Source: Cornus controversa (lineage: Eukaryota; Streptophyta; Magnoliopsida; Cornales; Cornaceae). From it: 64,000 nt of DNA. The notes below the pieces were generated by a model. That model saw only the letters and a program-made list of their open reading frames with translations, was not told the origin of the DNA and did not search any database. Position numbers and translations under genes: made by a program. Shown here piece by piece: positions 13,314 through 25,300 of this stretch (position 1 is the first letter of the stretch; every line of letters begins with the position of its first letter). The stretch covers positions 16,677,001 through 16,741,000 of the forward strand of contig CM048846.1 in NCBI GenBank assembly GCA_026545225.1, written 5' to 3'.

Positions 13314-16300
13314 TCAGCTGTTGACATTGGAGAGCATACCTCCACTTGTAGTTGGTATCACCACCTCCCAACCAGGCCCTTTAAGGGGAAACAAACTAAC
13401 AGCAGCGTCTGGTTCTCCCTCTTCATTTGGTGTACCAGCAAGCAGATCACTGCGGTCCAAAACCCTTTCCAAATCTTCATCAGAGATCTCCGTTTGTATT
13501 ATCTTGTCTTCAGGATCTTCTTCATCTCGGAGCAGTGCCAGCAGTTCATCCTGAAATAACACAGCTCCATTAACATGCTTAATCTAATATTGTCAAGAAA
13601 ATCATTTAACTTCATTATTCAACCAGTTGATCTCTAAAATTTCCACATATGGTGCATCGCAAGGAAATAGAAAGCTCAAGTGATGTATCATCGACATCCT
13701 TCCATACTATTGCTTGTAATCTAATAAATCTAAACTCATGGCTCACAAATATGGAAATAATAGCATAATCTCTTTGGGCATAAAAAAGTAGGAGTATTGA
13801 AACATTAAGTATTAAATGAGAGTTAAACATGCATATATATATGTGTGTGTGTGTGTGTGTGGTGAAATATACGGACAACCAAATAAGGTGCACATAGCTC
13901 AGCATTACTGCAGATGAAGACTTTTTCTGTCGAAAAAGCAGGCATCAGACATTCAGACTTGCATGCATTGATCTGGAATTGGCCCTTCATACAACAAGGT
14001 CAAGTCAACCCAGACCAATGCCTACCGATTTCATAATGAGCCCACCAAAATTGTAAGAAGCCTGAGCCAAGCTACAACGCTAGCCTGTCTACATATTAAG
14101 CTTTTTAAGAACACTGAGAAGATTTAATATAGCAGATAAAATATTAAATTTTGAATGATTTGGAAATAACTTGGAGTAGGCTGAATTGCGTCAACAAGTG
14201 TTCATTTGTCTGTTGTAGAGGATAGAAAATATACATTATATAACCAAAGTTTTAGAAATGCAGAAACAAGTTATACCAAGAGATGCATCTTTGGAAAACT
14301 TATATCAACCTGGCTCTCTAATATACACATTGTCCAATAGAGAACTACAGCATGGCATTAGAGGACTTTTGAGCCAACAGAACAGTACATATATCTCATG
14401 ATTGAAGATATCACAAACCTCCATAAGATCTGTACTGCTAGGCTTTGTTCTTTCTTGCTGAAACTGCCCTTTCCCAATCACGACATGCTCAAGCTTTAAC
14501 TTACTGAAAGCTCTTTTCAGAATTCGACCCTGATAGCATATACTTCCTCAGTTTCTTCCCATTACAAGTAGAATAGAAAAATGCATCATATAAAACAAAA
14601 AGAACAAAGCCAACCACAAAGGTACCTCTACAGATTGAGCTGTTGCCAGCCTGTAAACATGAACAGGCTTCGTTTGACCTATTCTGTGACACCGATCCAT
14701 CGCCTGTAAATCCATTTGGGGATTCTGGGATGCAAATGAAATATGATAAATTGTTTAGAAGGCCAAAAATGTAAATTGCATTAAATGAAAAGGGCCAAAA
14801 AGACCAAAACAAGCACAAGAAATAGAGAAAATCATGGTTTGAGGAAGGTACCCAATCACTGTCGTATAAAATGCAGGTATCAGCTGCAGTAAGATTGATA
14901 CCCAACCCACCAGCCCTAGTGCTGAGAAGAAATATTCTGTAATCACTGTTCACGTCATTGAACTCCTTGATCTGTTTGACCAAAAATAACAGGTTATCAC
15001 TAAAACAGAGGATAGTTCATCAAATGCTCCTTTTCTTCTGTGGCAACTGAATCTGAAATACCCTCAGTTTTGCAATCAAAGTAAACACTATAGACAAATG
15101 CATGGAGAGAAATTTATTCTAAAGGAAAGGACAAGAGGTAGAAACAATGAGACTAAACATATTCATGGGTGCAGGCTTGTACAAATAACATTGCATGGGA
15201 CTACGAGAAAAAAAAAAAAAAAGAACACACTCACACACGCGTGGGCGCGCGCGCACACACATAGCATCCATATAGAGACAGTGAATCATAACCTATCCGG
15301 AAAAAACAAGTAATAAAATTCCAAGAATTATAAACAGTGTACTGAATGTCAGAAAAATAAGATAATCAGTGTCACCTCAGTGATCAGCCCAGTGGGGCTA
15401 ACAAACTGAAGAGTATAGATTCTGTCAAATTTTATAAAATGTCAAAAATAAAACACTTCACTTGGATCTCTATCAAATGCAAACCAAAACTCCAGAATGT
15501 GTAAATTAATTTATAAAAATGACTTGGATCTCTATCAAATGTTAAGAGCTAGTCCTTACCTGTCTTTTTCTTTCGGACAATTTCACACTGCCATCAATTC
15601 TACAAACTGTAATTCCCTTTTCATTAAAGTAGTAATCAATTATATCTAATATCTTAGTCCACTGGCAGAAGATTAGAACCTGATTGAGAATATAACAGAG
15701 GTTACTAGAAAGATAAAGCAAATTAGAAGAATAAATAAATAAATAACCAATTAACTCTAAAGCATACTTTGTGCTTGCGAGCAAATAGCTTTGCCAGCAA
15801 TCTGTCCATCAAGCGAAGTTTGCCGCACTGTTCAACTATCTGTTCTACAGGTGGATAGAGATCTGTAAAGAAAACAAGCAAGACAAAAATTGCATAAAAT
15901 TATAGAGAACCCATTACTTTAGAACTAATTGATATTGCAAACAGCGTACGAGAGCCATCAAAGGCTGACTCTAAGAGATCAGGATGGTTGCAGTTCTTCC
16001 GAAGTTGAATCATCAGATTATTAAGCTTGCCTTTTATACCACGTCCTGCATTTTTATATATATTCAAAGTCAGCAAGAAAAATGACAAAATATAATGAAA
16101 AGAAAATGTCAAATTGTGGAGACAAGTCAACCATCAGACAGATTGGCAGTCTACCAATGATGTGCAACAAATGGACTGAATTCATGAATGTCCAAGACTG
16201 ACTGATGCAGGAGGCTTGAAAGAAAAGGAGAGAGAGGGGAAGAAGAAGAGAGAAAGAGAAGAACAGAAGGAGAAGAGAAATCTCAAGAAACGTATTCAAT

Positions 16301-22300: not shown

Positions 22301-25300
22301 GAAAACTTACCTTAACCGAAGCTTTAAGTAGTTCGCAAGAGAAACATCCAAGGTGGCTGGAAATTGAAATAGATATTCTGTTTTTTTTTTTTTTTTTTTT
22401 TTTTGCTGAACTGGTTTACAAAAGAACTAGTTTGGTGTAGTGCTGAAACTGGCTCAGTTCTGGACTGGATCCAGAACTAGTCTATTTCTGACTTTGTAAC
22501 CAAAAATTCTGGGCCCTTTTAATAATTCTGCTCCTGTCCCAAACAACAACTGCTTGTGTAAAAAAAAAAAAAATGACCGAGAGAAGCTTTGACTATGGCA
22601 ACAGCGAGAGAGGATTGGACTGGACGGTTGACTGCGAGAAGGCTCCGACTCCGGCGACGATGGCTTCCAGCAACGTTGGCTTCCAGCTTCTGTTGTTGGC
22701 AGCTTTGGTAGTGCGAGTAGATTCTGGCAGCAAAGATCTGAGTATGCGTTGGCTGGAGGGACGATCGGCGAAGATGAAAGGCTTTCCGGCGAAGGTGATT
22801 TGCTGTGTTTAGGGGATGATGAGAAGCTGATGGTTTTCAGATCTGGATAAATATATATATTTTTTTTTTCTGCGTTTGGTTTTTGTATTTGTGGTCTGGA
22901 TAAGTATTGCTGGCTGGTTTATGGCAAACGGTGATTAGGGTTCCAGTGGTCAGCAGCAGAAATACTCTGTAGGGTTTCGCTTGACTTGGGTCTTGTTATA
23001 TAGTTGGTGGTAGTGGCGGCTAGGGATTATTTTGTTTGGGTTGAAGATGGTGCAGGATTTAGGTATTGGGTGTGAGGAATATGATGTGAGGTGGCTGCTA
23101 GGGTTTTTCAGATGGATAAACAGGGGCTTTAGGGGCGGCTGCTAGGGTTTTCAGATGGATGAACAGTAGGTTTAGGGATTGGGTGTGAAGAATATGATGT
23201 GAGGCGGCTGCTAGGGTTTTTCAGATGGATAAACAAGGGCTTTAGGGGCGGCTGCTAGGGTTTTCAGATGGATGAACAGTAGGTTTAGGGCGGCTGTTAG
23301 GGTTTTCAGATGGATGAATGGTAGGTTTACTATTGCTGTGAACAGTAGATGCTAACAGAAGTAGTATGGATCTTCGCTCTGATACCAAAATTGATGCAGG
23401 AGGCTTGAAAGAAAAGGAGAGAGAGGGGAAGAAGAAGAGAGAAAGAGAAGAACAGAAGGAGAAGAGAAATCTCAAGAAACGTATTCAATAATAATCATCA
23501 AAAAGTACCGTCACAATGTATTAGCTATCCCTATTTATAGGCAAAACAATAACCCTAAAAGGAAAATAAGAGTCCTAAATAAATAGGGAAATACATATAA
23601 AATAAAATAAATCAAAATCATCCTCTACGTCTACGCCTATAGTAAGTGCGTAGACCATCCGGCTTAGGATCTCCATCACTGACTCATTGTATTTTCATCC
23701 AAGACCAGTGCTGGTCAAATCCATGAGGACCATAACACAAAAATGTTAGCATGGAGACATGATAGCAGGATACTATCTTATGCAAAGTCAAAAAACCATA
23801 TCGAGTTCTGACATATGTCTGATAACCAATCTAACCACATTACAATGAAGGATCAGAAAGCAATTAAAATATATGCTAATGCAGATTATTCTTGGAGGAT
23901 GCCTTGGCATAAATCCCCTCTTCTGATCTTGTGCTGTTAACAAGGACCTATCTTACAAACTATGGGATGCCTTCTGTTTAAACAGGCAAATCTTGCCTTC
24001 AATTTTAAAATTACTTTCCAAAACTGTACATTCTAACTCAATATTTTCAAAAAAAAATTATAATGAAATCATTTCCAAGATACAGCTAAGCAAAAAATAA
24101 TAATTTCGGTGATTGATTACATGGAAATGGATGGCCTACTCTTTATTATTTTTCTCGCTGTTACTATATTGTTCATTATCTATCTAATGCAGCTTTTAAG
24201 CAAAAATAGTTCATTACCAGTTTCCACCTTCTCTAGCAAATAATTTTCCAGGGTCTTGTTAACTAGATGCTCCTGGAAATTTTTTTGATGCTCAGTCATA
24301 TTAGCATATAAGATAATCTCTTTTTTCCGAGGGAGCATCTGCTCAACATCTGCTTTCATTCTTCGAAGGAGAAAGGGACGCAATATAGCATGGAGTTTTG
24401 CCACCACCTGCAGGCATCAAAACCACTGAGTATTATACATAATGCAAATAAAGTGTCGGAACAGTAAAATGCGTGGTCAGAAAACATGTGTACTTGAGCC
24501 CTTCTCTTCTCCTCCAATTCTTCTTTTATGGTTTCATTGTTGCACTTTCCCGAAAGATCAAACCTAAACATAAAATTGAATCATAAACAAAATTACCAGG
24601 CCATGTCAAGTAAATCATCACTATAACCCAGGGCATTTCTTGTTTTTTTTTCCTAAATTCACACTTCAAATTTTATTTTTTTTAAAACAAACAAAAGAAA
24701 AAAACAAAAAATATTTTTTTTTTTGTAAGAGTTAATCATGGTTAGGGAGAATGATTAGAAAAATGCTCTTAAATCAGTGAAGAAGGGATTTCACATAAAA
24801 ACCACCCAAGTTACCTTTAAATTCTCAGCTTTTCAACTTCAACTGTACAAAGGATTTAGAAATTCTTAGGCAGTAAGGTGGTGAAAATGGTGGGGTAGGG
24901 TAAGGGGGTTCATAAGTAGTTATGAAAGGGGAATGACTAGAACAATAGTCTTGAATCAAAGAAAAAGGGTTTACACATAAAAACCACCCATGTTGCCTCC
25001 TCAACTCTAAGCTTTTCAAATTTTCCAACTGTTCAAACTTCAAAGGATGAAAGCTTCTTATAAATATAGCGGCAAAAGAACAGTTAGGGTCGCCCTAGTG
25101 TGCAAATATTACCTAGCAAATAAAAAAGAAAAATGTTGGGCAGTTATAAATGCTAACTGACATTCAAATTTAAATACGGGGCAAATTCTGTGCCTCAAAA
25201 ATTTATTTCAACATTGTTTATAACACAACTTATTTCGATGCCTCCATAAATTGAGAAAGGACTCTACATTAACAAGCTCCTTGTTCATAATAGCCTAAGG

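Follow-up and report, generated by a model that had tools for sequence, protein, structure and literature searches.

The stretch of Cornus controversa DNA considered here (64,000 nucleotides of contig CM048846.1 in assembly GCA_026545225.1, positions 16,677,001 to 16,741,000; hereafter the window) contains the gene for the chromatin remodeler DDM1, with a Ty3/gypsy retrotransposon of 7,476 bp lying within its eighth intron. Intronic retrotransposons are ordinary in plants, and this one is notable solely because its host gene encodes a remodeler that helps to silence such elements. The insertion is real, of a known kind, and in a notable gene. An initial annotation of the locus, which had described a very young chromovirus in DDM1 and proposed a self-limiting feedback between the two, is confirmed in its observation and partly supported in its interpretation, as discussed below.

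The exon numbering used throughout is that of a gene model built by hand from the sequence alone, with the following coordinates for the gene and for the exons on either side of the element:

13314 to 31079, minus strand: DDM1 from start to stop codon, 15 exons, 759 amino acids
24218 to 24407, minus strand: DDM1 exon 8 (gene model), donor 539 bp from the 5' long terminal repeat (LTR) of the element
15950 to 16045, minus strand: DDM1 exon 9 (gene model), acceptor 157 bp from the 3' LTR

In this model, 14 of the 14 introns have GT...AG ends, and the 15 exons join into a single 759-residue frame with neither a stop nor a frameshift. Residues 4 to 759 match Arabidopsis DDM1 (PDB 7ux9) with 1217.7 bits, compared to 519 bits for human-type LSH, and both ATPase lobes are found by Pfam (SNF2 at residues 193 to 491, Helicase_C at 515 to 627), such that, with Arabidopsis DDM1 providing the best PDB matches, the gene is identified as the DDM1 orthologue. 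The element lies inside intron 8 (16046 to 24217), which measures 8,172 bp as it stands and 691 bp once the element and one target copy are removed, and the element genes share the minus strand with the DDM1 exons, so that both are read in the same direction. The coding bases of exons 1 to 8 total 1,402, which places the intron 8 junction inside codon 468, within the last 24 residues of the SNF2 match and 47 residues before Helicase_C; the earlier placement of the insertion between the two ATPase halves is therefore right to within a few dozen residues.

The element itself occupies 16203 to 23678 on the minus strand, and comprises the following features:

16198 to 16202: left copy of the target site duplication CTGAC (sequence)
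16203 to 16489, minus strand: 3' LTR, 287 bp, TGATG...CATCA in the sense of the element
16343 to 16350, minus strand: TATA-box-like TATAAATA in the 3' LTR, facing DDM1 exon 9 (putative promoter)
16429 to 18462, minus strand: second open stretch of the polyprotein (RNase H, integrase, SH3-like tail, chromodomain), the frame ending 61 bp inside the 3' LTR
16491 to 16498, minus strand: polypurine tract GGGGAGAA, 1 base from the 3' LTR (sequence)
16531 to 16689, minus strand: chromodomain PF00385 (7.3e-9; 35.9 bits, cut-off 25.1), apparently type II by its missing cage residues
18463 to 18465, minus strand: stop codon in frame, separating reverse transcriptase from RNase H (sequence)
18466 to 21450, minus strand: first open stretch of the polyprotein (gag, protease below the Pfam cut-off, reverse transcriptase), from open reading frame and Pfam
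21451 to 23375, minus strand: leader of ~1.9 kb with tandem repeats; two open frames tested, without a Pfam match
23376 to 23387, minus strand: primer binding site TGGTATCAGAGC, 4 bp inside of the 5' LTR (sequence), which we take to match the initiator Met tRNA
23392 to 23678, minus strand: 5' LTR, identical to the 3' LTR (repeat comparison)
23679 to 23683: right copy of the target site duplication CTGAC (sequence)

The two LTRs are direct repeats that agree at 287 of 287 bases, both beginning with TGATG and ending with CATCA on the minus strand, and the 5-bp target repeat is perfect on either side, all of which bears out the earlier description. Together, the TG...CA LTRs and the target repeat identify an LTR retrotransposon, and its domains (gag, protease, reverse transcriptase, RNase H and integrase, in that order) are those expected of Ty3/gypsy. 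The coding region was searched against Pfam as five separate pieces, giving E-values of 1.9e-17 for gag, 3.3e-43 for reverse transcriptase, 4e-34 for RNase H, 1.4e-15 for the Integrase_H2C2 zinc finger and 2.3e-17 for the SH3-like tail, in addition to that of the chromodomain. Two domains fell below their cut-offs, namely the protease (23.1 bits, cut-off 24.3) and the rve integrase core (29.0 bits, cut-off 32.6); the boundary of a search piece cut through the latter domain. The motifs DGGS, YFDD, D-D35-E, CCHC and GPF are all present in the polyprotein, with two further chance matches to the D35E pattern; a regular expression for the HHCC zinc finger found no match in the polyprotein, whereas Pfam recovered this finger, as given above.

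The polyprotein is read in one frame as two stretches, 21450 to 18466 (995 codons) and 18462 to 16432 (677 codons), which are otherwise unbroken. The lone in-frame stop between them, at the junction of reverse transcriptase and RNase H, did not feature in the initial annotation; because it splits the polyprotein, this copy is probably not autonomous. We note also that the leader carries tandem repeats next to the 5' LTR (23058 to 23329), with a 113-bp unit present twice (96% alike) and a 42-nt unit present five times (64 to 100%), as well as a 154-codon open stretch on the minus strand (22454 to 22918) without a Pfam match.

The name chromovirus is appropriate, because the chromodomain at the C-terminus of the integrase scores above the Pfam cut-off. 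In a phmmer comparison with chromodomains in the PDB, the best match had an E-value of 1.6e-4. Compared to CBX1 (3f2u), the third cage position is R in place of F and the middle cage W is retained, while the alignment stops short of the first cage position, and the six residues preceding the aligned part, STDQIA, hold no aromatic; this pattern, with the first and third cage aromatics apparently missing, fits a type II chromodomain.

Within the chromoviruses, the element appears closest to group C of the CRM clade. According to the portions available of the survey by Neumann et al. 2011 (PMC3059260), CRM elements are characterized by TGATG/CATCA at the LTR ends, a target repeat of 5 bp and a primer site of Met-tRNA type, and group C (for example, VitV1 of grape) by a type II chromodomain, a coding region that stops near the beginning of the 3' LTR, and dispersed copies. 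The present element shares the LTR ends, the target repeat, a primer site presumed to be of Met-tRNA type, the putative type II chromodomain, the coding end near the 5' end of the 3' LTR (61 bp inside it), and a dispersed rather than centromeric location. It differs in its in-frame stop and in its 287-bp LTR, which is 12 bp below the range of 299 to 1,225 bp in that one survey, a range that is not a definition. As the assignment follows end motifs, primer site and chromodomain type rather than a reverse transcriptase tree, CRM group C stays a lead, whereas the name chromovirus is backed by a test.

The rival clade is Reina, represented by the Bingo families of sugar beet, which, in the available part of Weber et al. 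2013 (PMC3605345), likewise have short LTRs (293 to 503 bp), a group II chromodomain that precedes the polypurine tract and, in 5 of 7 families, an open reading frame that extends into the LTR. Bingo elements are, however, 5.3 to 5.8 kb long, compared to 7.5 kb here, and the TGATG/CATCA ends are described for CRM. A scan of viral contigs with the reverse transcriptase piece gave two pattern matches and no confirmed relative, and blastn within the window found no DNA related to the element elsewhere. A gag-like fragment of another Ty3/gypsy element lies at 52375 to 52539 (weak tblastn match of the gag piece, 55 amino acids, 36%, 6e-8).

Counting substitutions between the LTRs gave 0 differences in 287 positions. 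If substitutions are assumed to accrue at 1.3e-8, 7e-9 or 2.5e-9 per site per year (the first two being common values and the third a slow one), this corresponds to 95% upper bounds of 0.40, 0.75 and 2.1 million years, respectively, and to median ages of 0.09, 0.17 and 0.48 million years. The insertion is thus young in evolutionary terms, but the earlier description as "very young" is weakened: the age is an upper bound only, because an LTR of 287 bp resolves age poorly. CpG content (0.47 in the interior of the element, 0.67 in the LTR, 0.33 in the DDM1 flanks and 0.53 in the rest of the window) is not decisive, and adds no support for youth.

The initial annotation had further suggested that the LTR could supply an early poly(A) site or splice sites. 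Using an acceptor matrix built from DDM1's own 14 acceptors, we find 6 acceptor-like sites with a score of at least 8 on the sense strand of the element and 5 on its antisense strand, compared to a rate across the window of 6.2 per 7,476 bases. The sense strand of the LTR has 1 site at this threshold, scoring 8.2, a count reached in 108 of 300 shuffled LTRs, and 2 at a score of 6, reached in 72 of 300; its antisense strand has none. Because shuffled LTRs and the window score alike, acceptor-like sites in the LTR are no more frequent than chance, and we rejected an LTR-supplied acceptor on these comparisons of shuffles, strands and window. An LTR-supplied AATAAA was likewise rejected, as there is none on the sense strand of the LTR. 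In intron 8 as a whole, the sense strand carries one AATAAA in the host sequence that precedes the element (24147) and one in the leader of the element (21565). Plant poly(A) signals are loose, and therefore termination in the LTR is possible even where this hexamer is missing. Overall, beyond the position and orientation of the element, we see no sign in the sequence of an effect on DDM1.

Taking these observations into account, we consider it most probable (approximately 0.72) that the element is a silenced passenger. On this reading, a Ty3/gypsy chromovirus that resembles CRM group C most and is probably not autonomous entered intron 8 of DDM1 recently in evolutionary terms, in the direction of the gene; it would now be silenced, transcription would pass through it, and splicing would remove the intron, now enlarged to 8.2 kb, so that DDM1 would still work and the insertion would be tolerated. 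This reading starts from what is directly visible in the DNA, namely the anatomy of the element with its identical LTRs, its target repeat and its stop, and the uninterrupted frame of DDM1, and it is favored by the canonical splice ends on both sides of the element, the intact 15-exon frame and the expected order of domains. The portions consulted of two sources point the same way: large plant genomes contain many genes with an element in an intron, which are often expressed like other genes, and such elements are often tolerated (PMC4417168), and most Arabidopsis genes with methylated long introns keep unchanged full-length transcripts after methylation is lost (PMC11265718). Close parallels are RPP7 and other Arabidopsis genes in which transcription crosses a long silenced intronic element (PMC4417168, PMC10241880, in part), although none of those host genes encodes the silencing factor.

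Three points weigh against this reading. The element is both long and sense-oriented; transcription defects in mutants were found at the longer and more methylated intronic elements in the portion available of PMC4417168; and the acceptor of exon 9 scores low (1.1) compared to the acceptor-like site of the LTR (8.2), on a small matrix of 14 introns and with the latter score reached in shuffled LTRs as described above.

Among the alternatives, the one that survives best, while still being improbable, is a self-dependent switch, in which DDM1 keeps the element heterochromatic and this heterochromatin in turn lets the polymerase reach exon 9. A drop in DDM1 would then lead to loss of the marks and to transcripts that end early, encoding a product of ~479 residues without Helicase_C, and thus to a further drop in DDM1. 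In the sections consulted of PMC4417168, loss of CHG methylation at intronic elements in the Arabidopsis mutants cmt3, ddm1, met1 and kyp suvh5 suvh6 accompanies defects in downstream exons, which are stronger for long methylated elements and involve early polyadenylation near the element, and a role of heterochromatin in reading through is also described in parts of PMC10241880 and for rice IBM2 mutants in PMC7145194. At the present locus, reading on from exon 8 gives a predicted 479-residue product lacking Helicase_C for transcripts that end at 24147 or within the element, such as at the AATAAA at 21565. Set against this, IBM1, the best-known intron sensor, retains both its intron methylation and its full-length transcript when DDM1 is mutated, and sensor behavior is not seen in most methylated long introns (PMC11265718, in part). 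We regard it as unlikely that full-length DDM1 would depend on the element remaining heterochromatic, with a transient loss becoming locked in by truncated transcripts.

As in the sensor in IBM1 intron 7, a gene with a role in heterochromatin control carries repeat DNA in an intron, where it splits the catalytic part; in contrast, the Arabidopsis repeat is organelle-like and its intron methylation has been shown to matter, while the present case is a full retrotransposon in DDM1, read from sequence, and the IBM1 sensor is unaltered in ddm1 (PMC11265718, in the portion available). Were full-length DDM1 to need the insert silenced, the locus would be a DDM1 counterpart to this sensor, with a heritable two-state switch placed on a master silencing gene by one recent insertion, and it would provide a natural test of whether a single insertion makes the silencing pathway bistable. 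Otherwise, it is a useful example of silencing genes also carrying tolerated elements. Among the literature results listed, with subscription journals outside the scope of the search, we found no title or abstract beginning that mentions an element within an intron of DDM1.

Less probable again is the negative feedback put forward initially, in which DDM1 output would be reduced by silencing marks spreading out of the element. This proposal agrees with the tendency of intronic heterochromatin to repress associated genes (PMC7145194) and with the lower average expression of Arabidopsis genes that have methylated long introns (PMC11265718), insofar as the excerpts consulted describe these effects. 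The insertion lies far from the promoter, however (~7.4 kb downstream of the start codon), and in most of the published mutants the dependence on the marks runs the other way (PMC4417168, in part). It is loss, rather than gain, of marks on a long intronic element that tends to shorten host transcripts in the available sections of PMC4417168 and PMC10241880, and hence a coupling of the opposite sign to that originally proposed, in which losing the marks cuts host transcripts short, appears the more likely of the two. Likewise, because full-length transcription across long intronic elements tends to rely on their heterochromatin, which depends in part on DDM1 (PMC4417168, in part), any loop is more likely to be self-reinforcing than self-limiting; most likely, there is no loop at all.

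It is quite improbable that the 3' LTR acts as a promoter, from its TATA-like box, for transcripts that run into exon 9. In such transcripts, the first in-frame Met would be residue 479, giving a predicted 281-residue C-terminal piece that could interfere with DDM1. The box faces exon 9 across the gap of 157 bp between LTR and acceptor, and cryptic starts arose from a complete Gypsy element (AT2G40960) in ddm1 and/or met1 (PMC10241880, in part), whereas neither ddm1 nor met1 showed strong activation of intronic elements in the portion consulted of PMC4417168. Finally, that the identity of the LTRs is an effect of assembly or gene conversion on an older insertion, with which identical LTRs taken alone, a CpG content showing no independent sign of youth and the stop already present in the coding region are all compatible, is very improbable in view of the perfect target repeat and of two open stretches otherwise unbroken over 995 and 677 codons.

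The remainder of the window contains several further features. A piece of a DUF502 protein on the plus strand (9447 to 10061, 9e-23), presumably akin to plant LIKE-COV proteins, is the downstream neighbor of DDM1, and upstream of the gene lies an open stretch rich in Arg, Asp and Glu (33826 to 34530) that has no Pfam match and that we take to resemble the tail of a U1-70K-type splicing protein. A MULE transposase domain is present on the minus strand at 59573 to 60343 (7.6e-14), along with a tandem array with a period of 61 to 62 bp at 61639 to 62162. Just beyond the DDM1 stop codon, a tRNA-Glu (TTC) gene is found on the plus strand (12011 to 12082), and a 104-bp unit is tandemly duplicated at 11605 to 11812, with the two copies 89% alike.

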